Part shown: positions 1-20,090 of the stretch, one piece after another
Position numbering within the stretch: the stretch's first letter is position 1
How the letters are laid out: each line of letters starts with the position of its first letter
Origin: Candidatus Heteroscillospira lomanii
Lineage (GTDB): Bacteria; Bacillota; Clostridia; Oscillospirales; Oscillospiraceae
DNA: 42,905 nucleotides
Reading direction: 5' to 3'
NCBI GenBank assembly: GCA_904419385.1
Contig: CAJFRI010000003.1
Span: forward strand, 1 to 42,905
Notes under the pieces: generated by a model
Told to the model about the DNA's origin: nothing
Seen by the model: only the letters and a program-made list of their open reading frames with translations
Databases searched by the model: none
Program-made: the position numbers and the translations under genes

Positions 1-684
1 GGGCGTTATGCCGTTTTTCTCAAGAACGACTTCGCCGACTCGCCGGATATGCGTCACCGTCAGTTTTTCCGCTAATTCGGGGTCGCGGGACTTTGCCGCG
101 TTATATATATCGGTGTGGTCTGTGAGCGACTGCTCGTAGTCGGTGGAGAAATCCGAGAAATAATATATGTGCCGTATGGTATTGTTTATGGAGCCCATGA
201 TTTGTATGAGCCTGTTCAGATAATCATTGCCGGCCGCGTTGCTCAGGATGAGGTGGAAATGATAGTTGTAGCCCGTCACCTGGTCCAGCACCTCGGGGTC
301 TGTCATATCCGCCGTGTGGAGCAGTCGCTCGAATTTCTGAAGATAGGACTCCATTTGGGAGAGGCCTTCATCCGTTATGTTTATGGTTCCCCAGTATGCG
401 GCGGAGCCCTCTATGACGCTGCGGGTGTGGATCAGCTGGAAGATGTTTTCGCCGAGCACGTTTGTGACAAATGTGCCGCGCCTGGGGTATGTGCGCAGGA
501 GCCCCTCCATATTAAGCGTCCGAATGGCGTCTTTGATTGGGGCGGTACTGACGTTGAGCGCCGCGCTGAGTTCACGCTCCGATATTTTTTCTCCCGGGCG
601 CAGTTCGCCGGAGATTATGCGGCGGCGGAGAATATCCGCGACCTGGTCGCGGATAGGCAATGAGATCTCTATCCCGTCTTTCAT
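1..684 (-). CDS. GntR-family transcriptional regulator, FCD subfamily (3' end cut by window edge)
   Basis: DNA-binding repressor or activator that senses a small carboxylate through an FCD domain. 228 codons are visible; the frame is still open at base 1, so only a few residues should be missing (family length about 220-240). Residues 1-75 form the GntR winged helix, with the typical G-E-L-R-P-G-E-K start and a recognition helix ending in R-R-G-T-F-V. Residues 80-228 are the all-helical FCD domain, with a Y-x-F-H segment near 141-144 and later His residues near 190 and 212 that suit its metal site. It is divergent from the RidA/amidohydrolase/TTT genes and is their likely local regulator; the effector is probably the transported substrate or a product of it (inference). 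ATG at 684 is chosen because the winged helix begins directly after it. Confidence 0.9.
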   Translation of the reverse strand, partial: MKDGIEISLPIRDQVADILRRRIISGELRPGEKISERELSAALNVSTAPIKDAIRTLNMEGLLRTYPRRGTFVTNVLGENIFQLIHTRSVIEGSAAYWGTINITDEGLSQMESYLQKFERLLHTADMTDPEVLDQVTGYNYHFHLILSNAAGNDYLNRLIQIMGSINNTIRHIYYFSDFSTDYEQSLTDHTDIYNAAKSRDPELAEKLTVTHIRRVGEVVLEKNGITP

Positions 685-703
685 TTGCCACCTCTGTTCT
701 AGC

Positions 704-716
704 ATACCGATGGTAT
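704..716. promoter_or_regulatory. Candidate GntR operator
   Basis: Perfect inverted repeat with 5-base arms ATACC and GGTAT separated by GAT. It lies between the predicted gntR promoter and the gntR start codon, about 20 bases inside the transcript. FCD regulators typically bind short palindromes of this kind, so autoregulation is plausible. Assignment is inference. Confidence 0.4.
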
Positions 717-742
717 ACAGAAATCTTATATTAAGTTTATCT

Positions 743-771
743 ATTATATCAACATTTTTGGTGATAAGCAA
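743..771 (-). promoter_or_regulatory. Predicted sigma-A promoter of the GntR gene
   Basis: On the minus strand, TTGCTT (771-766), a 17-base spacer and TATAAT (748-743). Transcription would begin near 736, leaving a leader of about 50 bases that contains the inverted repeat at 704-716. Confidence 0.55.
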
Positions 772-837
772 GTGTTGGTGTATTATGTTTTAGCTGTTTG
801 CACAAGAGGATTGATGGCAATATGTAATAAAAATATA

Positions 838-866
838 TTGAAATAAGACGAAATAAATGGTATTAT
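838..866 (+). promoter_or_regulatory. Predicted sigma-A promoter of the RidA/amidohydrolase/TTT operon
   Basis: TTGAAA (838-843), a 17-base spacer and TATTAT (861-866). Transcription would begin near 873, giving a leader of about 50 bases before the ATG at 926. The intergenic stretch 685-925 is AT-rich and holds only the two divergent promoters and the operator-like repeat. Confidence 0.55.
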
Positions 867-925
867 TGAATACACAATTGATATATCACATTTTAGAATA
901 TCAGATATCAAGGAGTGACCTGCAT

Positions 926-1396
926 ATGGATTGCTACGAAAAAATGAGAGAACTCGGAATAAAACTGCCGCCCCCTCCGGGGAAGGGCGGAATATATTCC
1001 TCCGTCCGCAAGTTCGGCGACAGGTTTTACTACACGTCAGGCGTAGGCTGCAAAAAGGACGGGAAACCGCTGTTTACCGGACAGGCCGGAAAGGATTTCA
1101 CTGTCGAGCAGGGGCAGGAAGCGGCGCGGGTATGCGTGCTCAACCTGCTGAGCAACATCGAGGCGGAGCTGCATGATCTAAACCGCATCAAAAGATTCAT
1201 CAAGATCCTCGGATTCGTCTCATCGGCCGATGACTTCGGACAGCAGCCGAAGGTCATAGACGGCGCGAGCCGGATGCTCATAGACATATTCGGCGAAGAG
1301 GCAGGCTGTGCCGCCCGCTCGGCCATAGGAGTCAATAATCTGCCGGGGAATCAGGCGGTCGAGATAGAGCTGCTGTTTGAGACGGAGGCGGAATGA
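926..1396 (+). CDS. RidA-like (YjgF/YER057c/UK114 family) protein
   Basis: 156 aa. RidA-family proteins hydrolyse reactive enamine/imine intermediates released by PLP enzymes, for example 2-aminoacrylate from serine dehydration; several distant subgroups have other deaminase roles. The C-terminal signature is present: Arg131 in A-A-R-S-A-I-G, then N-L-P-G and V-E-I-E, where the Arg binds the substrate carboxylate. At 156 aa it belongs with the longer RidA-like group rather than the roughly 128-aa archetype. ATG 926 is preferred because AAGGAG (910-915) precedes it; the upstream in-frame codons look non-coding. Its stop overlaps the next gene by ATGA. A PLP enzyme lies two genes downstream, which gives RidA an obvious partner. 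Confidence 0.88.
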   Translation: MDCYEKMRELGIKLPPPPGKGGIYSSVRKFGDRFYYTSGVGCKKDGKPLFTGQAGKDFTVEQGQEAARVCVLNLLSNIEAELHDLNRIKRFIKILGFVSSADDFGQQPKVIDGASRMLIDIFGEEAGCAARSAIGVNNLPGNQAVEIELLFETEAE

Positions 1397-2526
1397 TGGC
1401 GGAGAACGAGCTGAGAGTAAATGCATATGAGGCGGCGAACCGCAGGTTCGTCGGGGGACGGCTGCATACGGGCGGGCAGGCTTATTTTGAAAAGCTGTCT
1501 GACGAACCGTTTGATGACACGGAGCTGTTCCTCTCCCCGGGCTTCATAGACATGCACGTCCATTTATTTGACGGCTACGGTATTTTTGGCATGCATGCAT
1601 CCCTTTTCGGGCATCGCTGGGGAGTGCATGCCATGTCGGACGCGGGCAGCTGCGGATTCGACAACATCGACGGGTTTTATAAGTACATAATGCCCACTTA
1701 CAGAGGCGTGACAAAGCCGAAATTGTGGATACACGTCAACCGGTTCGGACTTCCGAGCAACCACGAGAGCATCGACTTTTCAACGCTCAGGCCGGAGCTG
1801 GCGGCGCGCGCGGCGAGAGAACATGCCGGCGACGTCGTGGGAATAAAGGTCAGGCTCAACTGCGACATCCCGGAGAAAGACTGCCTCGTCCCGCTCGACC
1901 GCGCCCTGGAGGCGGCGGAGCTGGCCGGCCTGCCGCTGATGGTGCACATAAGCCAGGGACCTCCCAACTGCGAGGATATACTGCCGAGGCTCAGGAAGGG
2001 CGATGTGGTGACACATATATTCAACGGCAAGCCGGGAAGCCCGTGGAAGGCCGACGGGGCGCCTTCAGATGAGCTGCTCGACGCACAGCGCCGCGGAGTG
2101 CTCTTCGATGTGGCGCATGGTTTTTCCAGCTTTAATTTCAACACCTGCCGCGGAGCGCTGGAGCACGGCTTCAGGGATGTGAGCGTGAGCACCGACATGC
2201 ACAAGCGCTGCTTTGCCGGAAAGCCGTTCACTTTTACCGATGTCATGAGCAAACTGTATGCATGCGGCATGACGCTCGAGGAGATAGTCTGGGGCGCGAC
2301 CGCAAAGCCGGCCGCCATACTTGGATTCGACGGATGGACGGACATGGACGCGCTGTGCGGGCACGGCACTCTGTTCAGCTTCAGGGAAAACACGGAAAAG
2401 CGCGTGTTTTTCGACGGATTTGGAAACACGGCCATACCGGACAAGGTGTTCCATGCCGAGTCCGTGCTTGTGGACGGCGAGCTGATCGCGTGTGATGACG
2501 TGCCGCCGGCAGTGGATCTTGGATGA
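1393..2526 (+). CDS. Amidohydrolase-superfamily enzyme, cog3964 / dihydroorotase-like deacetylase
   Basis: 377 aa, metal-dependent TIM-barrel hydrolase. Ligands visible in order: H55-x-H57 in G-F-I-D-M-H-V-H, the probable carboxylated Lys152 (G-I-K-V-R), His185, His208 and the catalytic Asp268 (S-T-D-M-H). This is the binuclear set of the dihydroorotase-like branch. Characterised cog3964 members (Atu3266, EF0837) remove acetyl groups from acetylated R-alpha-hydroxy acids, so an acyl ester or acyl amide of a small chiral acid is a reasonable substrate class; the exact one is unknown. The start overlaps ridA (ATGA), which implies translational coupling. An ATG at 1396 is an equally possible start. 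Confidence 0.85.
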   Translation: MMAENELRVNAYEAANRRFVGGRLHTGGQAYFEKLSDEPFDDTELFLSPGFIDMHVHLFDGYGIFGMHASLFGHRWGVHAMSDAGSCGFDNIDGFYKYIMPTYRGVTKPKLWIHVNRFGLPSNHESIDFSTLRPELAARAAREHAGDVVGIKVRLNCDIPEKDCLVPLDRALEAAELAGLPLMVHISQGPPNCEDILPRLRKGDVVTHIFNGKPGSPWKADGAPSDELLDAQRRGVLFDVAHGFSSFNFNTCRGALEHGFRDVSVSTDMHKRCFAGKPFTFTDVMSKLYACGMTLEEIVWGATAKPAAILGFDGWTDMDALCGHGTLFSFRENTEKRVFFDGFGNTAIPDKVFHAESVLVDGELIACDDVPPAVDLG

Positions 2527-2539
2527 AAGGGAGAGAGAT

Positions 2540-3640
2540 ATGCTGAACATCGAGACGCCTGCTGTGATAATCGATATGGAGCAGGTAGAGCGAAACCTCC
2601 GCCGCTATCAGCAGTGCGCGGATCTGCACGGGTGCGCGCTGCGGCCGCACACCAAGACCCATAAGATTGTGCGCCTGGCGAAAATGCAGATGGAATTCGG
2701 CGCAAAAGGCGTGTGCTGTGCAAAGCTGAGCGAGGCGGAAGTCATGGCGGCCGGCGGGATAGACGACATTTTTGTCGCATATCCGGTGATAGGCCGCGAG
2801 AAGATCGAGCGCTTCCTTGCGCTGTCAAGGCAGATACGCATCATATGCGGAGTCGACAGCATCGAGGGGGCGTCGGCCCTGTCGGATGCCGCGGCGGCCC
2901 ACGGCCAGCGCGCAGAGGTGCGCATAGAGCTTGATACCGGATATGCCAGGGCGGGCGTGCAGCGGGACGAGATACTGGAATTTGCGAAACGGGTGTCGGA
3001 AATGCCTGGACTCGACCTGGGCGGGATATTTACGTTTAAGAGCGCCACGCTCGCCGGGAAGCCGACTCTCGACCTGCGCGCCGCGGCCGAGGAAGAAGGA
3101 CGGCTGCTGTCTGAGACGGCCGAGCTGCTGCGGAGCAACGGCATACCGATCCGCGACGTCAGCGGCGGCTCGACGCCCACGGGCGAACTGGTCGCCGCTT
3201 ATCCGGGGATCACCGAAATAAGGCCGGGCACTTATATTTTCCAGGATGTGTCGGAGCTGCGGCAGGGCGTGGCCGAGCCGGAGGAGTGCTGCGCGGTGGT
3301 CAAGGTCACGGTCGTGAGCACCCCGACGCCGTATCGCGCGGTCATAGACGGCGGGTCAAAAGTGTTTGCAGCGGACAAGAAGCCTATGACGCCGCCGGTG
3401 AATCTGCCGGGATTTGGGCGCATAATCGGGCATGATGAACTCATATTCGACCACATGAACGAGGAACACGGAGTTATAGTGCGCAATGACGCGCCGACCG
3501 GCCTGAAAGTCGGAGATGTTCTGTACATAGTTCCGAACCATGTGTGCACGACGATGAATCTGTTTGATTTTGTGTACCTGCGCGAAAAAGACGGCAGCTA
3601 TACGCGTACCCGCGTCGACGGCCGGGGCCGCGTGTGGTGA
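2540..3640 (+). CDS. PLP-dependent D-threonine aldolase / D-serine dehydratase-like enzyme
   Basis: 366 aa, fold-type III (alanine-racemase N-domain) enzyme of the DSD1/D-TA family. These cleave or dehydrate D-beta-hydroxy amino acids using PLP and a divalent metal. The PLP-binding Lys39 sits in the family motif R-P-H-T-K-T-H-K, and the metal site is H334-x-C336 in P-N-H-V-C. Residues 4-240 form the barrel; the rest is the beta domain. ATG 2540 is chosen because GGGAGAGA lies just upstream and the family N-terminus I-E-T-P-A begins there; an earlier in-frame start would overlap the previous gene. It lies 13 bases after the amidohydrolase. If it dehydrates D-serine-like substrates, the enamine product is what RidA removes. 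Confidence 0.88.
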   Translation: MLNIETPAVIIDMEQVERNLRRYQQCADLHGCALRPHTKTHKIVRLAKMQMEFGAKGVCCAKLSEAEVMAAGGIDDIFVAYPVIGREKIERFLALSRQIRIICGVDSIEGASALSDAAAAHGQRAEVRIELDTGYARAGVQRDEILEFAKRVSEMPGLDLGGIFTFKSATLAGKPTLDLRAAAEEEGRLLSETAELLRSNGIPIRDVSGGSTPTGELVAAYPGITEIRPGTYIFQDVSELRQGVAEPEECCAVVKVTVVSTPTPYRAVIDGGSKVFAADKKPMTPPVNLPGFGRIIGHDELIFDHMNEEHGVIVRNDAPTGLKVGDVLYIVPNHVCTTMNLFDFVYLREKDGSYTRTRVDGRGRVW

Positions 3641-3659
3641 ATGTATAGATGGCATACAT
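3641..3659. promoter_or_regulatory. Inverted repeat before tctC, possible second operator
   Basis: Arms ATGTAT (3641-3646) and ATACAT (3654-3659) with a 7-base centre, directly after the PLP-enzyme stop. The half-site resembles part of the repeat at 704-716 (GTAT/ATAC ends). It may be a second regulator site or a weak RNA hairpin; no clear promoter hexamers were found with it. Confidence 0.25.
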
Positions 3660-3697
3660 CAAAAAACTGCAAAATTTATCAAAAGGAGAAATGAAAA

Positions 3698-4711
3698 ATG
3701 AAAAAACTGACAGCATTGTTACTTGCCTTGGTTATGATTTTCTCACTGGCTGCCTGTGATGGAACAGACGGCGGAAACGACAGCGGCGAGAGTGCGGCGT
3801 GGACTGAAAAAAACATTGAGATACAATTGGCGGCGGCAGCTGGCGGTGGCACTGATGTTGTCGGACGCGCACTTACTAATTATATAAACCAGCAGGGTGA
3901 ACACAACCTCACAATTATCAATAACACCGATGGCGGCGGCGTGGTAGCATTTGAAAATGTACGCAACTCAGACCCGGAAAAGGCTGACACACTTCTATTT
4001 TTCCATACGACAATGATAATCAAGACCGCTTCGCATATTTATGACAAATCTGCCACTGAGGACTTCACTGTCATCACTGTTGCCGAGCCGTCGGATCCGG
4101 GCAGTTATATCCTCGTTGTTCCGGCAGATAGTCCCTATCAGACAATGGAAGAATTTGATGCTGCCGTTAAGGAAAATCCAGGCGAGATTCTCTGTGGCGT
4201 TGAGACAGGCGGCAGCTCTCACGTTATGAGCGGACTTCTAGCTCAAGCCATCGGCGGAGAAATGAGTTTCGTGGAAGCTGGCTCTGATACCGAGAAAATG
4301 ACGGCTCTCATGAGCGGCTCTATCGACTGCGCAATAGTCAACGCCAACTCCAGTGCCCAGTATATCGAGGCTGGCAAGGCAATCGGTCTTGGATGCTTCT
4401 CCACCAGTAACGAAGGCGGTCGGAGTTCCATTTTACCGGATGTTCCCTCCTTTATTGAACTCGGATATGAAGATCTCTCATTCGCGCTCAAGTTTTTTGT
4501 CCTCGGTCCCAAGGGTATGGATCCCGCAGTGTGCGAGGAGATAGCTGACGCCTTTATTGCTGCGGCGGAAGACCCCGCCACTCAGGAGATACTGACCAAT
4601 GCCGGACAGGCTTGCACATTCCTGCCTTATGAAGAATCGCTGGCTGTTGTGCAGGCACAGGTAGATCAGCTCACGCCGGTCGTCGAGGCGCTTGGCCTCG
4701 TTCAGGACTGA
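3698..4711 (+). CDS. Tripartite tricarboxylate transporter substrate-binding lipoprotein (TctC/Bug family), system 1
   Basis: 337 aa extracytoplasmic receptor that captures a carboxylate and hands it to the TctAB membrane complex. It starts with a lipoprotein signal (K-K, hydrophobic stretch, L-A-A-C with lipidated Cys20). The Bug fold is recognisable from the A-A-A-G-G-G-T-D-V-V-G-R ligand loop near residues 46-57 and a second P-G-E-I-L-C-G-V loop. AAAAGGAG precedes the ATG. Codon use is clearly more AT-rich than in neighbouring genes, unlike the upstream enzymes, which suggests separate acquisition or replacement. The ligand cannot be read from sequence; Bug proteins bind di- and tricarboxylates, amino acids and aromatic acids. 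Confidence 0.92.
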   Translation: MKKLTALLLALVMIFSLAACDGTDGGNDSGESAAWTEKNIEIQLAAAAGGGTDVVGRALTNYINQQGEHNLTIINNTDGGGVVAFENVRNSDPEKADTLLFFHTTMIIKTASHIYDKSATEDFTVITVAEPSDPGSYILVVPADSPYQTMEEFDAAVKENPGEILCGVETGGSSHVMSGLLAQAIGGEMSFVEAGSDTEKMTALMSGSIDCAIVNANSSAQYIEAGKAIGLGCFSTSNEGGRSSILPDVPSFIELGYEDLSFALKFFVLGPKGMDPAVCEEIADAFIAAAEDPATQEILTNAGQACTFLPYEESLAVVQAQVDQLTPVVEALGLVQD

Positions 4712-4723
4712 CAGTTAAAGCGT

Positions 4724-4749
4724 GCGGCAGCCTGGAAACAGGCTGCCGT
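4724..4749 (+). promoter_or_regulatory. Stable hairpin between tctC and tctB (system 1)
   Basis: Nine-bp perfect stem CGGCAGCCT/AGGCTGCCG with a 6-base loop, 13 bases after the tctC stop and just before the tctB ribosome binding site. No T-run follows, so it is not an ordinary terminator. It may stabilise the upstream mRNA or reduce read-through so that more receptor than membrane subunit is made. An equivalent hairpin is present in the second Tct operon. Confidence 0.6.
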
Positions 4750-4769
4750 ATTGAAGGAGGTATGACGCT

Positions 4770-5243
4770 GTGAAAAAAATCAGACGCGACCATGTCACAG
4801 GCCTAGCGCTTATCATACTGGGAGTTGTTGTAGCGGTACTGGTCATGCAATTCAAAAAGCCGATGACGGCGGCCTATCCCGGCCCGAAACTGTTTCCGCT
4901 CATTGCCGCCTTTGGTTTTGTCGCATGTGGCCTGGGTATTTTCATTGAAGGTTGCCTGAGTAAGAAAGAGGAAAAGCCTTTCCTCAGCGCTGCGGGGTGG
5001 AAAAAAGTTGGAATTATGTTTGCCGTGTTGATCGTCTATGTTTTTCTGATGAAATACCTCGGCTATATGCTTGCAACGCCATTTGCACTGTTCGCCTTTA
5101 CAACCATCATAGAAAAGGGAGAAAAGACAAAGGCCGGTTTAGTTTCAAAAATAATATATTCCGTTGCGGTGACCGTTTTTATATACTTGATGTACGTCAC
5201 GGCGTTTGGTATGACGTTCCCCAGCGGAATGCTGTTTGATTAA
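4770..5243 (+). CDS. Tripartite tricarboxylate transporter small membrane subunit (TctB), system 1
   Basis: 157 aa, four predicted membrane segments (about residues 9-28, 42-62, 78-105 and 124-147), matching the usual TctB size and topology. The family motif Y-P-G-P-K-L-F-P-L lies between the first two helices. TctB is the small partner of TctA in this secondary transporter, with the receptor TctC driving specificity. GTG 4770 is the start, preceded by AAGGAGG (4754-4760); no other start keeps the spacing. The next gene follows 13 bases after its stop, with its ribosome binding site in the gap. Codon use is AT-leaning, like tctC upstream. Confidence 0.88.
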   Translation: MKKIRRDHVTGLALIILGVVVAVLVMQFKKPMTAAYPGPKLFPLIAAFGFVACGLGIFIEGCLSKKEEKPFLSAAGWKKVGIMFAVLIVYVFLMKYLGYMLATPFALFAFTTIIEKGEKTKAGLVSKIIYSVAVTVFIYLMYVTAFGMTFPSGMLFD

Positions 5244-5256
5244 AGGAGGCGGCAAA

Positions 5257-6753
5257 ATGATTGAGAGCTTGCCTTTTATTTTAGAAACACTATCATCGCC
5301 TTATAACATAGTCCTTATGTTGGCAGGCAATGTTGTCGGCATAATTTTCGGTGCTATCCCCGGCCTCTCGGGCACCATGGCCGTCATGCTATTCATGCCG
5401 CTAACTTATACGATGGATGCTGGTACAGCCATTGTTTTCCTGCTCTCCCTGTGGATAGGCGGCTGCTCGGGCGCGTTCATAGGCTCGGTGCTGCTGGGCA
5501 TACCGGGCTCGGCCTCTGCCGTGGCCACCTGCTGGGACGGCTATCCGATGAGCCTGCAGGGCAAGAGCGGAAAAGCTCTGGCCATAGGCATGACCGCTTC
5601 GTTTACCGGAACGTTTTTCAGCGCGATATTCGGTTGCATACTTTGTGTCTATGTAGCAGATATTGCGTTCCTGCTCAGCGCATGGGAATACTTTTCGCTG
5701 TGCTTTGTTGCGATAACGATGGTCATAGCTATTTCAAAAGGCAACATGTTCAAGGGGCTTGCGGCAGCTTCGCTTGGCCTTCTCTTCTCGTCTGTGGGAT
5801 ATTCCCCCATAGACGCCGAGCCGCGCTTTGTGTTTGACAACATGTACCTCATGGGCGGACTTGGGATGACGATAGTACTTATGGGTATTTTTGCCCTGAG
5901 CCGCATACTCGTGGATTTCGGACAGGGATATCCGCCGACACCGGAAGTTGATACTAAAAGCATACATGGTTTTGGTATAACGCCTACAGAGGTAAAGGAG
6001 CAGGGTGGAAATATTGTTCGTTCATTTCTGATAGGATTGGGAATTGGATTTCTGCCTGGTATGGGTCCTGGACTCTCCAATCTTGTGGCCTATTCATCGG
6101 CTAAAAACGCCTCCAAAGACCCCGACAGCTTCGGAAAGGGCAATCCTGCTGGCGTTTGGGCACCTGAAGTTGCCAACAACGCTGCCATCGGCGGCGCGCT
6201 CATACCTATGGCGGCGCTCGGCATCCCGGGCGACTCCACCACCGCGCTGCTCATCGGCGCTCTCACGATACACGGCCTCGAGATGGGCCCCATGGTATTT
6301 CAGAACAGTGGCCATGTAGTGTACCTCATGTTTGTTACTGTGGCAGTTTGTGCTTTGATGGTACTCGCCATGCAGACATTTGGCATGCGCCTGTTTCCAC
6401 ATGTCCTCAAGATCCCGCCGCACTACATGTATCCTGCACTTATAGTCATCTCTCTTATGAGTTCCTATGTGGAGTCCGGCAACCTTTACAAATGCGGCAT
6501 GATGCTGGTATTCTGCGCTATAGGTGTGGCGATGAATTATGGAGGATTGCCGACCAGTTCTCTCATACTCGCCTTTGTTCTCGGGCCCATACTTGAGAAG
6601 AACATGCTCCGCGGATTCCAGTACAGCGGCACCTGGACCACTTTCTTCACGAGGCCCGTGTCCGGCATACTCATGCTGCTGGGTATCTTCTGCATATTCT
6701 CTCCGGCCATCCGCATGCTGCTTGACAAACGAAAGGCAAGTAAACAACAATAA
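5257..6753 (+). CDS. Tripartite tricarboxylate transporter large membrane subunit (TctA), system 1
   Basis: 498 aa, about eleven or twelve hydrophobic segments; the large permease of the TTT system. The family repeats are visible: G-A-I-P-G-L-S-G near residue 32 and G-F-L-P-G-M-G-P-G in the second half, plus G-I-P-G-S-A-S and G-I-P-G-D-S-T loops. ATG 5257 is chosen over an upstream TTG because AAAGGAGG (5242-5248) sits at ideal distance from it. Codon use is patchy: stretches around 5440-5630 and 6160-6300 are as GC-rich as the rest of the window while others are AT-leaning. Co-transcribed with tctC and tctB and followed by the MBL hydrolase. Confidence 0.93.
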   Translation: MIESLPFILETLSSPYNIVLMLAGNVVGIIFGAIPGLSGTMAVMLFMPLTYTMDAGTAIVFLLSLWIGGCSGAFIGSVLLGIPGSASAVATCWDGYPMSLQGKSGKALAIGMTASFTGTFFSAIFGCILCVYVADIAFLLSAWEYFSLCFVAITMVIAISKGNMFKGLAAASLGLLFSSVGYSPIDAEPRFVFDNMYLMGGLGMTIVLMGIFALSRILVDFGQGYPPTPEVDTKSIHGFGITPTEVKEQGGNIVRSFLIGLGIGFLPGMGPGLSNLVAYSSAKNASKDPDSFGKGNPAGVWAPEVANNAAIGGALIPMAALGIPGDSTTALLIGALTIHGLEMGPMVFQNSGHVVYLMFVTVAVCALMVLAMQTFGMRLFPHVLKIPPHYMYPALIVISLMSSYVESGNLYKCGMMLVFCAIGVAMNYGGLPTSSLILAFVLGPILEKNMLRGFQYSGTWTTFFTRPVSGILMLLGIFCIFSPAIRMLLDKRKASKQQ

Positions 6754-6770
6754 GTCACGAGGTGATATAA

Positions 6771-7625
6771 ATGCCACTCAACAGCACATCTAAGATCAGT
6801 CCACCGCCCGGCGATCTCATGGCGCGCGTCTGCCGCCGTCCGTGGGAGGCGTATGTCGAGCCTTTTGCCATGGCGCCGGGCGTGTGGTATATCAGCGGCA
6901 ACGACTGGGTCGCCTGCTATCTCATCGATACCGGCGACGGCCTTATCCTCATCGACACGGCCATGCACGAGAGCGCCTATCTCATGATTGAGAATATCCG
7001 CAAGCTCGGATATGAGCTCACGGACATAAAAAAGATACTCCTTACGCACGCGCACATAGACCACATCGGCGCTGCGCGCACGATGAAGGAGCTCACCGGC
7101 GCGAAGCTCTATCTCGGCGCGCGGGATCTCGAGTTTCTCCACGAGAGGCGCGACCTGATAGCAAACAACGGGGAGTATACCTGCGGCGAGTTTGAGCCTG
7201 ACGAGCTCTACGACGACGCAAAGCCCATCTCGCAGGGACATATCACGGTGCGCACTGTGTCGACTCCGGGACACACCCCCGGCTGCACGTCGATGTTTTT
7301 CGATGTGACCGATAAAAACGGCCGCACACTCAAGTGCGGCATACACGGGGGCGTGGGGCTGAATACGCTCAACCGCGAGTATTTCGAGGAGAAGCGCCAG
7401 CCGGTCAGCCTGCGCGACGAGTTCATCGAGGGGCTGAAAAAGCTCGACAAGATGGATGTCGACATATGCCTGCCTTCTCACACCAATCAGGTTGGCATAC
7501 TTCAGCTCGTACCGCAGATAAGCGGGGATCACAACCCGTTTATCGACCCGAGCATCTGGCATGAGCTGATGAATGAGCGGCTCGAGCGGGTGTACGCGCT
7601 GATAGAAAAGGAAAAAACAATCTGA
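6771..7625 (+). CDS. MBL-fold metallo-hydrolase with a class B3-like metal site
   Basis: 284 aa cytosolic enzyme (no signal peptide) of the metallo-beta-lactamase superfamily. The metal ligands are H93-x-H95-x-D97-H98, His168 in S-T-P-G-H-T-P-G and His237 in L-P-S-H-T. There is no obvious bridging Asp after His168, so the ligand set looks like the subclass B3 pattern; many such proteins are lactonases or other hydrolases. Last gene of the run, 17 bases after tctA and preceded by a GAGGTGAT ribosome binding site, so it probably acts on the imported compound or a product of it. The lack of a signal peptide argues against a secreted beta-lactamase. Substrate unknown. Confidence 0.87.
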   Translation: MPLNSTSKISPPPGDLMARVCRRPWEAYVEPFAMAPGVWYISGNDWVACYLIDTGDGLILIDTAMHESAYLMIENIRKLGYELTDIKKILLTHAHIDHIGAARTMKELTGAKLYLGARDLEFLHERRDLIANNGEYTCGEFEPDELYDDAKPISQGHITVRTVSTPGHTPGCTSMFFDVTDKNGRTLKCGIHGGVGLNTLNREYFEEKRQPVSLRDEFIEGLKKLDKMDVDICLPSHTNQVGILQLVPQISGDHNPFIDPSIWHELMNERLERVYALIEKEKTI

Positions 7626-7657
7626 AAATAAAAGCCCCATCCGGGGCTTTTATTTTT
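7626..7657 (+). terminator. Rho-independent terminator of the first TTT operon
   Basis: Stem AAAAGCCCC (7630-7638) and GGGGCTTTT (7643-7651) with loop ATCC, followed by TATTTTT. It sits immediately after the MBL gene stop. Confidence 0.9.
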
Positions 7658-7666
7658 GCTTTTCGC

Positions 7667-7695
7667 TTGACATATCCGGGCAAAAGCCGTAAATT
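7667..7695 (+). promoter_or_regulatory. Predicted sigma-A promoter of the stalk-domain gene
   Basis: TTGACA (7667-7672), a 17-base spacer and TAAATT (7690-7695), just after the terminator. It leaves a leader of about 50 bases before the ATG at 7750. Confidence 0.55.
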
Positions 7696-7749
7696 TTAGC
7701 TGAACACCAACGCAGGAAATGTCCAAATTTGACAAGAGGAGAGTATATC

Positions 7750-8964
7750 ATGAAAAAACGGCTTCTTTGTATGATTCTTTGCGCAGTGCTCGTCGCCGGT
7801 CTGGCAATGCCCGCCTTCGCCGAGGGAGAGGGCGAGACCCGCAGCGGATTCATCATCGGCGAAAACTTTTACGACTACGCCACGCCCGTCAGCGGCGACG
7901 GCTGGAGCTATGACGGCAACTACAGGATAACCTTCAGCGGCATCAGCCTGGCGACCCCCGACTACCCCTACACCAACTACACCTCTTTCCAGTTCTGCAA
8001 CCCGCCGTGCGACCTCACCGTCGTCCTCGCCGACGGCACCTCAAGCTCCTTCAACAGCTTTGAAACAATGTACAGAATCGGGAAGGCCAGCGTCGATGCC
8101 GCCAAAATCACCTTTGAGGGAGGCGGCACCCTGACCTGCCATCAGTTTGTCATCGGCCCGGTGGAGATAAACGGGTCACAGATTAATTCGACCTACTTTG
8201 CCTGCGGCGACATGATTTTGAACGGCGGCGCTCTCACCACGACCCGACTCACCATCCAGGGCGATTACGACCTGAACTCCGGCAGCATTCTCGCCGAGGG
8301 CGGCGACTACAGCTACGAGAGCTGCCTGAGAATAAACATGGACTACGTAGACGACGGCGACGCCGTTGTCTCCCTGTTCAAAGACAAATACGGTCAGCCG
8401 CACAAGCTTGTCTGCACCACCTACGACTGGGGCGACGCCTACACCGTCGTCGACAGCAAGGGCGAGAACAGCACCTACGCCTCCTGGAGCTCCGGCGACA
8501 CTCCCGAGCCCGCAGCTGACATGACCGCCTACGCCTCCACCCAGTTCGTGAATGTGGACGGCGAGCCGGTCGAGTTCCAGATGTACGCCCTCAAAGACGA
8601 AAGCGGAAACCCGACGAACTACGTCAAGGCCCGCGACGTGGCCTATGTCCTGAGCGGCACCGAGGCGCAGTTCAATGTCGGATGGGACGGCAGCGCAAAC
8701 CTCATTGCCGGTGAGAGCTACGACGCCAACGGCTCAGAGATGAGCACCCCGTTCAGCGGCGACCGCGAATATAAGGCGGCCGCCTCGGCCACCAATGTGA
8801 ACGGCAAGCCCGCCGAGCTAGAGGCCATCATGCTCTTTGACGACAACGGCGGCGGATATACCTACTACAAGCTGCGCGACCTCGGCGCGGCGCTGGGCTT
8901 CAATGTAGGCTGGAACGCCGAGCTCGGCGCTTACATCGAGACCGACAAGCCCTATGAGGGCTGA
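7750..8964 (+). CDS. Secreted protein with two copper-amine-oxidase-like (stalk) domains
   Basis: 404 aa with a clear Sec signal peptide (about residues 1-24, ending A-F-A). The middle, about residues 30-255, is Gly/Ser/Thr/Tyr-rich and beta-strand-like and I do not recognise it. The C-terminal part holds two related modules, about 272-330 and 350-404; each has a V-N-V-D-G or V-N-G-K-P start, Y-V-K-A-R-D-V or Y-Y-K-L-R-D-L, and F-N-V-G-W. These match the stalk (copper amine oxidase N-terminal-like) domain common on Clostridia cell-surface proteins, where it is thought to serve attachment or display. ATG 7750 follows AGAGGAGAG; an upstream in-frame TTG/ACG region lacks a signal peptide. Single-gene unit between terminators; function unknown. 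Confidence 0.8.
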   Translation: MKKRLLCMILCAVLVAGLAMPAFAEGEGETRSGFIIGENFYDYATPVSGDGWSYDGNYRITFSGISLATPDYPYTNYTSFQFCNPPCDLTVVLADGTSSSFNSFETMYRIGKASVDAAKITFEGGGTLTCHQFVIGPVEINGSQINSTYFACGDMILNGGALTTTRLTIQGDYDLNSGSILAEGGDYSYESCLRINMDYVDDGDAVVSLFKDKYGQPHKLVCTTYDWGDAYTVVDSKGENSTYASWSSGDTPEPAADMTAYASTQFVNVDGEPVEFQMYALKDESGNPTNYVKARDVAYVLSGTEAQFNVGWDGSANLIAGESYDANGSEMSTPFSGDREYKAAASATNVNGKPAELEAIMLFDDNGGGYTYYKLRDLGAALGFNVGWNAELGAYIETDKPYEG

Positions 8965-8973
8965 ATGGGCAGC

Positions 8974-9006
8974 AAAAATCCCGCTGATTCAATCAGCGGG
9001 ATTTTT
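8974..9006. terminator. Bidirectional terminator between stalk gene and mgtC
   Basis: Perfect inverted repeat built on ATCCCGCTGAT/ATCAGCGGGAT, flanked by A-run on one side and T-run on the other, so it can end transcripts from both converging genes. Confidence 0.88.
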
Positions 9007-9012
9007 TCGTCT

Positions 9013-9684
9013 CTAAATGCCCTCGGCAAAGACGACGCCGGGCAGGCGGCTGAGCTTTTCTATCACGTCCCGGTGATCCTCGTGCGCCGGCAGGCGCATG
9101 ACCATGGTGGCGGACACGCAGTTCTCGATCGGGCGCTCCATGTCGGCGCTGACGAAGCGGAAACCCATGCCTTTGGCCTCCTCAATGAATGGGAGGACAT
9201 GCTCCTCGCCGTCGAACAGCACGGACAGGCGGATGAGCGGGCTGTGGCGCAGGAAGCGCTCCTCTATGCGCTCGCCTATCGTCGCCGCAAACACGGATAT
9301 GATGACGAGCGCCACGGCGCCGATATAGTATCCGCAGCCGGCGGCGAGCCCGACCGACACGCTCACCCACACGCCCGCCGCCGTCGTGAGGCCGACGACG
9401 CGGTTGGAACGGGAGATGATTATGCTGCCGGCGCCGATGAAGCCTATGCCGCTCACGGCGGCGGCCGCGATGCGCGTCGTGTCGACGGCGGGGTCCGACA
9501 TGTACATGATCTCGCCGACAAGCACCGTCATGGCCGAGCCGACTGCGACGAGCATGTATGTGCGGAACCCGGCCTCGCGGCGCTTGCGCGTGCGCTCGAG
9601 GCCCATTATGCCGCCGAGCACGGCGGCGAGCAGCAGCCGGAACAGGCCCAGATCCCATAAGGCCACATAAAACGGATTTTCCAT
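9013..9684 (-). CDS. MgtC/SapB family membrane protein
   Basis: 223 aa. About residues 1-135 form the hydrophobic MgtC domain with several membrane helices and the family motifs G-L-E-R and G-I-G-F-I-G-A-G-S-I. Residues 140-223 form a soluble ACT-like tail (R-L-S-V-L-F start). In pathogens MgtC modulates F1Fo ATPase and supports growth at low Mg2+; in other bacteria the role is less defined. ATG 9684 follows GGAGGTTGG; an upstream in-frame ATG would run into lepA. It lies 16 bases after the lepA stop and is the last gene of the xre-lepA-mgtC unit. No Mg2+-leader-type structure was seen in that short gap. Confidence 0.9.
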   Translation of the reverse strand: MENPFYVALWDLGLFRLLLAAVLGGIMGLERTRKRREAGFRTYMLVAVGSAMTVLVGEIMYMSDPAVDTTRIAAAAVSGIGFIGAGSIIISRSNRVVGLTTAAGVWVSVSVGLAAGCGYYIGAVALVIISVFAATIGERIEERFLRHSPLIRLSVLFDGEEHVLPFIEEAKGMGFRFVSADMERPIENCVSATMVMRLPAHEDHRDVIEKLSRLPGVVFAEGI

Positions 9685-9700
9685 TTTCCAACCTCCGAGG

Positions 9701-11506
<1,806 letters not shown>

Positions 11507-11509
11507 TTA

Positions 11510-11692
11510 TCAGAAAACCTCCTGAGGGAAACCCACGCGCAGGCGCGCAGCGCCGCCGCAGGCCGGGCTCGGCCCGGCCGAGGAATTTAAAAGGCCGGAG
11601 GAACCGCGGACGGCGGAGCCGGACGCGGGGGATTTCCCATGGTCGATATGCGCGATGATGGAAAAGCTGCGGATTTTGCTTCTGTCAGTCAT
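11510..11692 (-). pseudogene. Truncated duplicate of the lepA 5' end
   Basis: A 60-codon open frame. Residues 1-21 equal the start of LepA (one change, N9S) through the P-loop G-K-S. Residue 22 is Pro instead of Thr and the rest is unrelated low-complexity sequence, so it cannot be a GTPase. Its ATG overlaps the xre stop (ATGA), it has the same GGAGG (11708-11704) as lepA, and its own stop lies three bases before the true lepA ATG. It would therefore be translated between xre and lepA if transcribed. It may be a remnant of recombination with a divergent lepA allele, or a chance leader peptide. No evidence of function. Confidence 0.8.
11561..11579. other. GC-only hairpin inside the inserted spacer
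   Basis: Perfect 8-bp arms GGCCGGGC and GCCCGGCC with loop TCG, in the 107-bp unique spacer (11523-11629) between the two lepA-start repeats. It has no adjacent T-run, so it is not a canonical terminator, but it could slow ribosomes or polymerase ahead of lepA. Confidence 0.6.
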
Positions 11693-14158: not shown

Positions 14159-15655
14159 TCAAGAATGCATCTTGGCCTTTTTGGCTTTCCTCTTCTCACT
14201 GATCATCGGCCAGAACACGCTGAACGCGGCGAGCAGCAGGAAGGCAAGGGACACAGGGCGGGTGAAGAAGGGCAGGACGCCCTGATCGGTGTAGCTGAAG
14301 CCCTTGCGGAAGTAGGACTCGAGGTTCTCCGCGAGGATGAACGCAAGGATCATCGGGCTCGACGGGATGTCGGCCATCTGGAACAGCACGCCGATGAAGA
14401 GGAACACGACCATCATGAACACGTTGAACATCGACGAGGTGGAGGTGTAGGCGCCGACGTAGCACATGACGAGTATCGCGCTGTACAGATAGTGATAGGG
14501 CACCTTGAGCAGGAAGGGGAACCAGCGCTTGGTGAGCAGCTCGCCGACGCACACGAAGATGGCGGCAAGGAGGACCATTATAAAGACGAAATAGACGAAA
14601 TCGGGGTGAGTGGAGATGAGCAGGGGGCCGGGCTGGAGTCCGTGGACTATCAGGCCGGAGAGCAGCAGGGCGGTCGGGGCATCGCCGGGGATGCCGAGGC
14701 TCATCATCGGGATGAGCGCGCCGCCTATGGCGGCGTTGTTCGACACCTCGGAGGCCATGACGCCCTCGGGGATGCCGGTGCCCCATTCATCGGGGTTCTT
14801 GCTCGCAGATTTGCATTGTGCGTAGGCCACCATGTTTGCAAGGCTGGAGCCCATGCCGGGCAGGAAGCCTATCCACACGCCGAGTACGAACGAGAGCAGG
14901 ATGGTCTTTATGTTGCTGGTGAAGTCGCGCAGGGTGACGCCGAGGCCCTTGAGGTCCTTGGCCTTGACCTCGGGCAGCTTCTGGTTGCCTTTGGCGAAGT
15001 CGGCAGATACCTGGAGCAGGGCGAAGATGCCGAGCATGGCGGCGACCATGTCGATGCCGCCCTGGAAATAGACGGAGTTAAAGGTGAAGCGCAGGCTGGC
15101 GGTGATAGGATCCATACCTATGCATGCGGCCAGCAGGCCTATGCCTGCGGCTATCATTCCCTTGACGGCGTTGCCGCGCGAGAGCGAGGCGACGAGGACG
15201 ACGGCGCAGAAGCAGAGGCTGAACAGCTCCCAGGGGCCGAGCTTGAGCGCGAGGTCGGCTATCGGGCCGGAGAGCAGCATGGCGATGATAACGGAGAAGA
15301 AGGTGCCCATGAAGGAGCAGATGATGCCGAGCGCCAGGGCCTTGGAGGTCTGGCCTTTCTGGCTCATGGGATAGCCGTCGTAGCAGGTGGCTATCGAGGA
15401 GGCCGAACCGGGGATGCCGACCAGGACGGCGGCGATGAACGAGCCGGAGATGCCGCCGACATACATGCCGAGCAGCATGCTGAAGCCGTTGTACATCGCC
15501 ATACCGAAGGTGAGCGGGAGTATGAGCGTCATGCCCATGCCGCCGGAGAGGCCGGGGATGGCGCCGAAGATAACGCCGACGACCGCGCAGAGCGCCATGA
15601 GCAGCAGGTTCAGCGGGTCGAGGCAGGTCATGAACGAACTGAAGAACACATCCAT
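14159..15655 (-). CDS. Tripartite tricarboxylate transporter large membrane subunit (TctA), system 2
   Basis: 498 aa, same length as the TctA of the first system and with the same landmarks: G-A-I-P-G-L-S-G near residue 31, G-I-P-G-S-A-S near 78 and G-F-L-P-G-M-G-S-S in the second half, among about eleven or twelve membrane spans. It forms the permease with TctB. GGAGG precedes ATG 15655. Unlike system 1 its codon use is uniformly GC-rich, in line with the surrounding genome. It is followed by two esterase-like hydrolases in the same operon, so the substrate may be an esterified or acylated carboxylate (inference). Confidence 0.95.
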   Translation of the reverse strand: MDVFFSSFMTCLDPLNLLLMALCAVVGVIFGAIPGLSGGMGMTLILPLTFGMAMYNGFSMLLGMYVGGISGSFIAAVLVGIPGSASSIATCYDGYPMSQKGQTSKALALGIICSFMGTFFSVIIAMLLSGPIADLALKLGPWELFSLCFCAVVLVASLSRGNAVKGMIAAGIGLLAACIGMDPITASLRFTFNSVYFQGGIDMVAAMLGIFALLQVSADFAKGNQKLPEVKAKDLKGLGVTLRDFTSNIKTILLSFVLGVWIGFLPGMGSSLANMVAYAQCKSASKNPDEWGTGIPEGVMASEVSNNAAIGGALIPMMSLGIPGDAPTALLLSGLIVHGLQPGPLLISTHPDFVYFVFIMVLLAAIFVCVGELLTKRWFPFLLKVPYHYLYSAILVMCYVGAYTSTSSMFNVFMMVVFLFIGVLFQMADIPSSPMILAFILAENLESYFRKGFSYTDQGVLPFFTRPVSLAFLLLAAFSVFWPMISEKRKAKKAKMHS

Positions 15656-15669
15656 TTTTGATTACCTCC

Positions 15670-16146
15670 TCAGAACAGGATTCCGCTGGGCAGCGGGATG
15701 CTGAACAGCTCGGTGAACAGCAGGTAGATGCCGATGGTGAGCACGGCTGTGATGACCACGGCGGCGATCTTGTTGACCTTTTCGCCGCTGCTGAGGACAA
15801 AGATGAATGCGAGCGTGGCGATAGGCGTGGCGATCAGGAAGCCGACGATCCCGAGCAGGACGGCGTAGGCTATCATGAGCACGGACGCGAGGCCGAGGCG
15901 TTTCCAGCCGGCTTTGTCAAGGTAAGGCTTGCTTTCCTTGGCGTTGGGGTCTTTTTCCTTGCCGCGGGCCTGGATTATCATGATGATGGAGCACAGGGCG
16001 ATGATGCCCTCGGCCAGATACGGGAAGATGCGCGGGCCGGGCTCATACAGTCCGTCAATGACTTGGATACTCGGTGTCATTGCAGCAAAGAAAACGGCAA
16101 TCAGCAGGAAAATGACACCGACTATCTGTGTGCGGTTTAATTTCAT
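15670..16146 (-). CDS. Tripartite tricarboxylate transporter small membrane subunit (TctB), system 2
   Basis: 158 aa with four predicted membrane helices (about residues 8-25, 40-60, 84-115 and 124-148). The E-P-G-P-R-I-F-P-Y motif replaces Y-P-G-P-K-L-F-P of system 1. TctB supports the TctA permease. GGAGG precedes ATG 16146; the tctA start is 14 bases downstream. A strong hairpin lies in the 84-base gap between this gene and tctC. The central cytoplasmic loop (about 62-80) is Lys/Glu-rich. Confidence 0.9.
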   Translation of the reverse strand: MKLNRTQIVGVIFLLIAVFFAAMTPSIQVIDGLYEPGPRIFPYLAEGIIALCSIIMIIQARGKEKDPNAKESKPYLDKAGWKRLGLASVLMIAYAVLLGIVGFLIATPIATLAFIFVLSSGEKVNKIAAVVITAVLTIGIYLLFTELFSIPLPSGILF

Positions 16147-16183
16147 TCTCTTACCTCCTCTAGTTTACATTGGCTTCATTTAT

Positions 16184-16213
16184 AATGGAAGCCACCGCAA
16201 GGTGGCTTCCATT
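16184..16213 (-). promoter_or_regulatory. Stable hairpin between tctC and tctB (system 2)
   Basis: Perfect 13-bp arms (AATGGAAGCCACC and its complement) with a 4-base loop, 18 bases after the tctC stop on the minus strand. What follows is AT-rich but not a T-run, so a partial terminator or mRNA-stabilising element is likelier than a full stop. It occupies the same place as the hairpin at 4724-4749 in system 1. Confidence 0.65.
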
Positions 16214-16230
16214 AAATTTGTCGTTTTAAC

Positions 16231-17271
16231 TCAACGGCCTTCGGCGAGGATGCCGAGGCTCTCGGCGACGGAATGCTCGCTGTCGAAGAACGACTGGAGG
16301 GCGGCTCTGGAGTCCTCAAGGTTCATCCAGCCGGGCTGGCAGCCCATGTTGGTCATGCCGTCGATATAGGCCTGATCCTGGGTGACGCCCTCAAGGGAGG
16401 CGTTCATGGCCTGGAGGGTCTCCTCCGGAGTGCCGGCGGGGGCGAAGAGGAATATGTAGCTGTTGGAAGTGTAGTCGACGCCCTGGTCGGTGATGAGCTG
16501 GTACTGCGGGTAAGCAGAGGTGTCGGCGTCGGCGCTGTTGGCCATGAGGCCGAGCACCTTGACCTTGCCGTCGGCCTCGTAGCTCACGCCGTTGGCGGCG
16601 GAGCAGTTGCCCAGGCTGATGAAGCCGCCGGCGACGTTCGTCAGCTTCTCGGTCTCGTTTGCGGCCTCGACCATGCGGAACTCAACGCCGCACTCCTGAG
16701 CGATGGAGCCCCAGAGGAAGTGGGTGGCGTTCTTGGTGGCGATGGCGCAGCTCAGCTCGCCCGGATGCTCCTTGGCGTAGTCGATCATCTCGGCAAAGTT
16801 GTCATACGGTGCGTCGGGGGCGGCGATGATGGCCTGCAGGCCGAAGTCCTGCATGACGGCGACGACCTCGAGATCCTCGAGCGGGTTGACGTCGGTGGCT
16901 CCGGTGAGGTAGGAGTCAATGATGCCGGTGTGCATGCACAGGAGGTTCTGGCCGTCGGGATCCATGGCGGCGACGGAGCTGAAAGCGACGGCGCTGGAGT
17001 CGTAGTTCTGGACGACGACGTTCTCGTCGATCAGCGGGCTCCATGCATTTGCGATGAAGCGGGTGTGCAGGTCGGTGGAACCTCCGGCCTTGCTGGCGGA
17101 GTGGATGGTCACGGTCCCGTCAGGCCACTCACCGGCGGGGGCGTTGGCCTCGGGCGCGCTGCTTTCGGGCGCGGAGCTCTCGGGAGCGGCGCTCTCAGTG
17201 GAGCCGCCGCAGCCGGCCAGCAGGCCGACGACCATGACGAGTGCGAGTGTAAGAGCAAGCAGTTTTTTCAT
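16231..17271 (-). CDS. Tripartite tricarboxylate transporter substrate-binding lipoprotein (TctC/Bug family), system 2
   Basis: 346 aa receptor. A lipoprotein signal ends L-L-A-G-C with Cys21, followed by a short Ser/Ala/Pro/Glu repeat linker (S-S-A-P-E repeats, about residues 28-44) that tethers the domain to the membrane. The Bug fold follows, with S-A-S-K-A-G-G-S-T-D-L-H as the ligand loop. ATG 17271 is chosen: it gives the signal peptide and has a GGGAG site in front; 25 further in-frame codons upstream look like leader. First gene of the operon, divergent from the LysR pair, which is its likely regulator. Ligand unknown. Confidence 0.94.
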   Translation of the reverse strand: MKKLLALTLALVMVVGLLAGCGGSTESAAPESSAPESSAPEANAPAGEWPDGTVTIHSASKAGGSTDLHTRFIANAWSPLIDENVVVQNYDSSAVAFSSVAAMDPDGQNLLCMHTGIIDSYLTGATDVNPLEDLEVVAVMQDFGLQAIIAAPDAPYDNFAEMIDYAKEHPGELSCAIATKNATHFLWGSIAQECGVEFRMVEAANETEKLTNVAGGFISLGNCSAANGVSYEADGKVKVLGLMANSADADTSAYPQYQLITDQGVDYTSNSYIFLFAPAGTPEETLQAMNASLEGVTQDQAYIDGMTNMGCQPGWMNLEDSRAALQSFFDSEHSVAESLGILAEGR

Positions 17272-17340
17272 GTTGTTCTCCCTTTCAATTTGAATTATGT
17301 TTAGCATAAAACTAACATTCTTAAAAATAATATTTGTTAT

Positions 17341-17352
17341 GCGCATATGCGC
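17341..17352. promoter_or_regulatory. Perfect 12-bp palindrome in the tctC leader
   Basis: GCGCATATGCGC, a full palindrome located about 60-70 bases downstream of the predicted tctC transcription start. It is a candidate regulator site in the divergent LysR/tctC region; LysR proteins usually bind imperfect dyads, so the assignment is tentative. Confidence 0.35.
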
Positions 17353-19496: not shown

Positions 19497-20087
19497 TCAG
19501 CTGCGGCTCTTGCCTTTGGCGTAGCCGAGGGCGAAGGCCTTTTTGTTCATCTCGACGAAACGGGGCTTCACGTTGTCCTCGATCGCCTTCATCCACACAT
19601 CCTCGGGCAGGTCCATTATGGATGCGAGGATGCCGATGAGCACGACGTTGACGGCCTTGCTGCTCCCCGCCTCGAGCGCGAGCGACAGCGCGTCGGCCGA
19701 GACCATGTTGACGCCGAGGGCCTTGATCTTCTCAAGTATGCCGTCGGGATAGGAGGCGGCGCCCGTGATGACGGGCATGGGGTTTATCCTCTGGTCGTTG
19801 ACGATGAGCTCACCGCCTTTTTTGAGCCAGCCGAGCCAGCGGGCGGCCTCGAGCCGCTCGAAGGAGAGGATGTAGTCGGCCTCGCCGCGGTCGACCAGCG
19901 GGGAGTAGACCTTGTCGCCGTACTTCACATATGTAACGACGCTGCCGCCGCGCTGACTCATGCCGTGCACCTCGCTGAGCTTGACGTCGTGCCCGTAGGA
20001 CATGAGGGCGCTGCCGAGGATGCGCGAGGCGAGCAGGGTGCCCTGGCCGCCGACGCCGACTATCATTATGGATTTTGTCTCACTCAT
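19497..20087 (-). CDS. iorB: Indolepyruvate oxidoreductase subunit beta
   Basis: 196 aa gamma-type domain of 2-oxoacid:ferredoxin oxidoreductases. The N-terminus I-M-I-V-G-V-G-G-Q-G-T-L-L-A-S is the hallmark, followed by the H-G-M-S-Q-R-G-G-S-V segment. With IorA it oxidatively decarboxylates aryl pyruvates (from Trp, Phe and Tyr transamination) to aryl-acetyl-CoA and reduces ferredoxin, an energy-yielding step in anaerobic amino-acid fermentation. ATG 20087 lies 3 bases after the iorA stop; its GGAGGTGTG site lies within the iorA end, so the two subunits are coupled. Cytosolic. Confidence 0.94.
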   Translation of the reverse strand: MSETKSIMIVGVGGQGTLLASRILGSALMSYGHDVKLSEVHGMSQRGGSVVTYVKYGDKVYSPLVDRGEADYILSFERLEAARWLGWLKKGGELIVNDQRINPMPVITGAASYPDGILEKIKALGVNMVSADALSLALEAGSSKAVNVVLIGILASIMDLPEDVWMKAIEDNVKPRFVEMNKKAFALGYAKGKSRS

Positions 20088-20090
20088 TGC

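Follow-up and report, generated by a model that had tools for sequence, protein, structure and literature searches.

The window analysed here is the 42,905-nucleotide stretch of Candidatus Heteroscillospira lomanii that spans positions 1 to 42,905 of contig CAJFRI010000003.1 (C3). At its left end, a gene for a GntR/FCD-family regulator lies divergently from seven co-directional genes, which include those for a RidA protein, a cog3964 amidohydrolase, a pyridoxal phosphate (PLP) enzyme and a TctABC system of the tripartite tricarboxylate transporter (TTT) type. The orientation and family of all eight open reading frames (ORFs) were confirmed, and the gene families and the stem at 7623-7658 largely agree with the preliminary description of this DNA, which had a divergent regulator facing seven genes with overlaps or short gaps and a closing terminator. 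The RidA and hydrolase genes overlap by 4 nt and the TctB and TctA genes by 8 nt, and the remaining gaps are short (13, 57, and 58 nt). Because position 1 of the window is also base 1 of the contig, the GntR gene lacks its 3' end here, and whatever lies past it is out of view. The host genome (1.79 Mb) is 92% complete. The features are as follows.

1..705, minus strand: GntR/FCD-family regulator (Pfam GntR 68.9 bits, FCD 69.5 bits; 235 amino acids visible, cut by the contig end)
706..925, no strand: divergent intergenic region between the GntR and RidA genes, read from the sequence
926..1396, plus strand: RidA-family protein, Rid1-like (PF14588/PF01042)
1393..2526, plus strand: cog3964 amidohydrolase, expected deacylase (family match; metal ligands conserved)
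2540..3640, plus strand: fold-type III PLP enzyme of the D-serine dehydratase (DSD)/D-threonine aldolase family, dehydratase-type (Ala_racemase_N and D-ser_dehydrat domains; PLP Lys and His-x-Cys metal site)
3698..4711, plus strand: TctC solute receptor (Pfam match; lipoprotein-type signal LAAC, judged by eye)
4770..5243, plus strand: TctB small membrane subunit (Pfam match)
5236..6753, plus strand: TctA large membrane subunit (Pfam match, 412.6 bits)
6819..7625, plus strand: metallo-beta-lactamase (MBL)-fold hydrolase, B3-like (under the curated cut-off; resident neighbour, probably outside the module)
7623..7658, plus strand: intrinsic terminator (strong stem and T-tail; conserved in the congener beside the MBL gene)

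Three of the starts probably lie inside longer ORFs: ATG 926 for RidA, preceded by AAGGAG, rather than 857, to which the ORF reaches back; ATG 2540 for the PLP enzyme, 13 nt past the hydrolase stop, rather than GTG 2492; and ATG 6819 for the MBL protein, whose ORF extends back to 6771. A promoter-like site at 838-866 (10/12, TG-extended) faces the operon. A GTATAC palindrome with the inverted repeat ATACC-N3-GGTAT lies at 700-720, adjoining the GntR start, and is a possible operator of the FCD type.

Active sites of the three enzymes

The PLP enzyme matches D-threonine aldolase, D-threo-3-hydroxyaspartate dehydratase and D-serine dehydratase. When it was mapped on the aldolase AxDTA, Lys59 and His347 were found to be retained as Lys55 and His350, respectively; Asp349 and His193 are replaced by Cys352 and Ala188, respectively, and the metal Asp and the base of the aldolase are thus absent. 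Lys55, His350 and Cys352, the last two within the motif PNHVCTT, are the residues of a Zn/PLP D-serine-type dehydratase, and the chicken D-serine dehydratase likewise has His/Cys metal ligands and lacks His193 (PMC4401734). The fold-III PLP domain and the His-x-Cys site are shared with the Zn/PLP D-serine dehydratase (3anu) and the D-threo-3-hydroxyaspartate dehydratase (3wqc), from which the locus enzyme is nevertheless distant in sequence (123 and 157 bits, respectively). His-x-Cys was also present in every relative whose motif was inspected, so that the dehydratase-type site characterises the group as a whole rather than this locus in particular.

Since the His-x-Cys site is present and the aldolase Asp and His193 are missing, the enzyme is expected to perform beta-elimination on a D-beta-hydroxy amino acid, which would explain the presence of RidA. 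The alternative, that it is a D-threonine or 3-hydroxyaspartate aldolase cleaving its substrate, draws on its top-scoring solved relative, a D-threonine aldolase, and on its top curated model, BhcC (194 bits). However, this score is far below the BhcC cut-off of 690, both residues diagnostic of the aldolase are substituted, and an aldolase yields no enamine, which would leave RidA without explanation. We regard cleavage as very improbable; of the two reactions that the preliminary description had proposed, dehydration is retained.

The RidA protein contains the conserved Arg, within ARSAIGV. Its nearest solved proteins of a named subfamily are PA0814 (82 bits) and ACIAD3089 (55 bits), and the uncharacterised 3d01 scores above both. 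It is expected to be a Rid1-type imine/enamine deaminase. Rid1 proteins deaminate 2-aminoacrylate in vitro (PMC5619798), and as 2-aminoacrylate is the type of product that a DSD-like dehydratase releases, a Rid1 protein fits beside the PLP enzyme.

The hydrolase matches the solved cog3964 proteins 8wzy, 2ics (E 4e-40) and 2ogj (E 2e-37), and keeps every metal ligand (HxH, Lys152, His185, His208, and Asp268). Family and metal ligands are thus all shared with 2ics (EF0837) and 2ogj (Atu3266), whereas the identity to them is low, and the EF0837-like relatives examined adjoin SelA/DgaE-type PLP genes, not DSD genes. The host genome carries four cog3964 genes.

Related neighbourhoods and the limits of the module

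In a same-phylum sample of 398 genomes, the closest relative of the PLP enzyme (52%, genome G450) is encoded ~30 bp from a RidA gene whose product is 51% identical to the locus RidA. The closest hydrolase is encoded in the same genome, 2.4 kb from a second RidA gene (52%). RidA genes were found within 7 kb of a PLP enzyme gene in four genomes versus 0.26 expected, and within 7 kb of a cog3964 gene in three versus 0.05 expected, the expectations being from a simple Poisson model with gene counts from listings, which ignores the relatedness of the genomes. In the phylogeny, the locus hydrolase groups with that of locus L124 (100/92) inside a RidA-linked cog3964 clade of ten (99/96), and all RidA-linked cog3964 genes fall in this clade; membership of the locus hydrolase in it is suggestive. 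The cog3964 genes outside the RidA-linked set mostly adjoin SelA/DgaE-like genes. As a separate observation, PF00144 serine beta-lactamase-fold proteins and fold-II PLP enzymes (PALP/threonine-synthase-like) are encoded near cog3964 genes in two genomes (L124 and L125).

Among 40 cog3964 loci of Pseudomonadota, two uncharacterised loci join the three enzyme families in a single operon, as ours does. In L214, genes for a CN-hydrolase, cog3964 (7094-8254), RidA (8206-8712) and DSD (8709-9788) run head to tail with overlapping ORFs. In L215, the order is DSD, RidA, a GNAT acetyltransferase and cog3964, together with a GntR/FCD regulator and the DctM/DctP components of a tripartite ATP-independent periplasmic (TRAP) transporter. 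These two operons differ from ours in having a TRAP or ATP-binding cassette (ABC) transporter in place of TctABC, in their GNAT or CN-hydrolase genes, and in their low identity to it. In three further loci (L218, L219, and L220), cog3964 and DSD genes lie no more than ~7 kb apart. The preliminary description had proposed a search for conserved neighbourhoods of the hydrolase and PLP enzyme genes with TctABC, as a check on its scheme; the cog3964-RidA-DSD operons and the RidA pairs above chance bear out the enzymatic part of this, whereas TctABC together with the triad was absent from all other loci examined.

These pairings also bear on whether the hydrolase might deacylate a compound other than an amino acid, such as an O-acyl hydroxy acid, with RidA and DSD serving general D-serine detoxification. 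One characterised cog3964 hydrolase reportedly acts on acetyl-(R)-mandelate, which would suit such a role. However, cog3964, RidA and DSD share an operon in two phyla, and cog3964 is recurrently paired with PLP enzymes; O-acyl hydrolysis is therefore a highly unlikely explanation of the locus.

A parallel arrangement has a different deacylase. Genes for a D-aminoacylase, RidA and DSD occur together in L076, L153 and L170 (a Subdoligranulum plasmid), and L063 has the D-aminoacylase and DSD, with no RidA seen. The DSD is of the same family as ours (43% identical in L076, 49% in L170) and the RidA is Rid1-type, as at the locus; in contrast, these three operons carry a D-aminoacylase (PF07969) instead of cog3964 and lack TctABC. 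ABC transporter genes lie alongside in L076 and L153, and L170 adjoins a recombinase gene.

Plasmids of Rhizobiales commonly carry cog3964-RidA pairs, and the annotated ones inspected add a class-V PLP enzyme and an ABC transporter. None of 72,556 plasmid records covered 80% of a fused query of the triad. On the E. coli plasmid pEC6563-NDM5 (L152, 6305-11085), genes for a regulator, a DSD-like 'alanine racemase', an M20 peptidase, RidA and a major facilitator superfamily transporter directly follow IS26, ~3 kb from blaNDM-5. Judged by its genes, this operon is likely a catabolic unit of the same type, carried by a resistance plasmid.

The MBL gene had been counted as part of the module. A congener (G001) keeps the gene order of window positions 6814-11522 (84% DNA identity), from the MBL gene (87% identical at the protein level) through the gene after it to lepA, but has no TctABC or enzyme genes upstream of MBL; no RidA match was found in this genome. 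Since the congener has the MBL gene at the same place without the module, it was left out of the module. Relatives of the MBL protein are present in family members without any cog3964 match, and a homologue was labelled in none of the cog3964 and DSD loci retrieved. The protein scores 171.5 bits against a curated subclass B3 cut-off of 240, with no signal peptide by eye. The gene is probably a resident neighbour unrelated to the pathway.

A recent insertion of the module was considered and set aside. The lower GC content of the module (0.54 versus 0.61) and its absence from the congener fit a gain. However, at the congener junction (G001:C33, L158, reverse-complement 980-1646) a LysR frame continues as far as the start codon of MBL, possibly as a deletion junction or an assembly artefact, and because the junction lies inside the LysR frame, gain in the host and loss (or misassembly) in the congener are equally possible.

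Comparison with the ong pathway

The ong cluster of Pseudoalteromonas prydzensis ACAM 620 confers oxidative chitin catabolism, acting on N-acetyl-glucosaminate (GlcNAc1A), and has been tested genetically (PMC9537276). OngB is a deacetylase, and OngC is a fold-III deaminase acting on D-glucosaminate (GlcN1A), D-serine and D-threonine (PMC9537276). OngD is an essential RidA protein without an assigned role (PMC9537276). The structure of OngB shows a mononuclear D-aminoacylase-type enzyme (PMC12017989). The ong cluster and our locus have in common a deacetylase, a fold-III PLP deaminase, RidA, an uptake system and a regulator, with the same proposed chemical order, and the earlier remark that no described pathway combines these parts is thus superseded (PMC9537276). 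They differ in importer and regulator (SSS and RpiR in ong, TctABC and GntR/FCD here) and in the deacetylase family (D-aminoacylase-type OngB, cog3964 here). The locus hydrolase has no match to PpOngB, whereas the L076 D-aminoacylase does match it. By these comparisons of sequence, the locus is analogous to the ong cluster and not a member of it.

The locus might itself serve an ong-like route, in which GlcNAc1A is deacetylated and then dehydrated to 2-keto-3-deoxygluconate. The correspondence of its three gene products to OngB, OngC and OngD (PMC9537276) would suit this, D-glucosaminate belongs to the D-beta-hydroxy amino acids, and the SelA/DgaE-type genes found beside other cog3964 genes give a hint of sugar-acid chemistry. 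Conversely, neither KdgK nor GH20 is encoded in the visible operon (the region past GntR lies off the contig), the deacetylase is not of the OngB family, and the PF01081 aldolase for 2-keto-3-deoxy-6-phosphogluconate (KDPG) is absent from the 92% complete host genome, which weakens the oxidised-chitin reading. Such a route is unlikely.

Proposed pathway and its meaning

We propose that the operon serves the inducible breakdown of a small N-acyl-D-(beta-hydroxy)amino acid, a reading to which we assign a probability of about 0.6. TctABC would import the anionic substrate, and the cog3964 metallo-hydrolase, as its family suggests, would strip the acyl group. From its residues, the PLP/metal enzyme would then dehydrate the free D-amino acid by alpha,beta-elimination to an enamine/imine, which the Rid1-type protein is predicted to hydrolyse to ammonia and a 2-oxo acid entering fermentation. 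The divergent GntR/FCD protein, given its position, may regulate the operon by sensing substrate or product. The substrates, the regulation and the TctABC cargo are those that we infer for this operon. N-acyl-D-serine or a close relative would be the simplest substrate candidate, because its product, pyruvate, requires no additional pathway enzyme; the visible operon has no kinase or aldolase and the genome no KDPG aldolase, and a product requiring no activation fits this. The activity of OngC on D-serine and D-threonine, in the same chemical order, supports the scheme.

Several points weigh against this reading. The hydrolase scores 251.7 bits against the NCBIfam NF006689 cut-off of 371 and is thus a divergent member; its nearest relatives are ~36% identical, its branch is long, and its placement with the other clade was not rejected in an approximately unbiased (AU) test (p 0.21). 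Elsewhere, DSD is a less frequent neighbour of cog3964 than are SelA/DgaE-like or class-V PLP enzymes, so that the hydrolase by itself cannot define the product. For the transporter, the TctA, TctB and TctC genes occur together, as in a TTT system, but the best TctC relatives in the 398 genomes are only ~30-35% identical, with none closer. TctC was therefore dropped as a pointer to the substrate, and it is operon order that argues for transport of the same substrate. In addition, TctABC has lower GC and GC at third codon positions (GC3) than the enzyme genes (GC3 0.52-0.59 versus 0.69-0.74), which makes a separate origin conceivable. Of the earlier import, deacylation and dehydration scheme, the enzymatic steps thus gain from the parallel D-aminoacylase and M20 operons, whereas the TTT link stays positional.

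The transporter points, and the 11 TctC genes of the 1.79-Mb host genome, favour a view in which the enzymes form one unit and TctABC is a mere neighbour with an unrelated carboxylate as cargo. Conversely, TctABC lies on the enzyme strand with gaps of just 57-58 nt, and a receptor-based TRAP importer adjoins the same core in L215. Other cog3964 genes also adjoin such importers: one lies beside TctA and TctC genes, with a divergent LysR gene, in the congener (L083, G001:C123, 6438-10725), and a paralogue in the host genome directly follows TRAP DctP-DctQ-DctM (L080, G000:C40, 4077-8173). We consider an unrelated cargo rather unlikely.

Elsewhere in the window, a second TctABC system lies at 14159-17346 on the minus strand, beside two plus-strand LysR-type genes, and two genes at 19497-21836 resemble, by eye, those for indolepyruvate ferredoxin oxidoreductase subunits, which would suit amino-acid fermentation. 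The 11 TctC and four cog3964 genes are consistent with a lifestyle on small carboxylates and acylated acids.

Overall, the locus is not a new kind of system. The three-enzyme core recurs in other phyla with exchangeable deacylases and transporters, which makes the locus a new form of a pathway type that was described recently. Around a RidA core, the deacylase, the PLP enzyme and the transporter can each be exchanged, which aids the annotation of similar operons, including the one on the E. coli plasmid. Hydrolases of the cog3964 family are widespread and annotated as dihydroorotase, adenine deaminase or plain metallohydrolase, and a settled role was not found in the open-access literature. 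One subset recurs beside RidA and a PLP enzyme, which suggests a role for these hydrolases in supplying ammonia-releasing eliminations and makes the substrate accessible by coupled assay. More tentatively, and at somewhat less than even odds, a RidA-linked cog3964 subfamily may be the deacylase of a pathway that spans phyla and acts on N-acyl-D-beta-hydroxy amino acids. If so, the family would have a physiological function, and acylated D-amino acids would be a type of cargo new to TTT systems.

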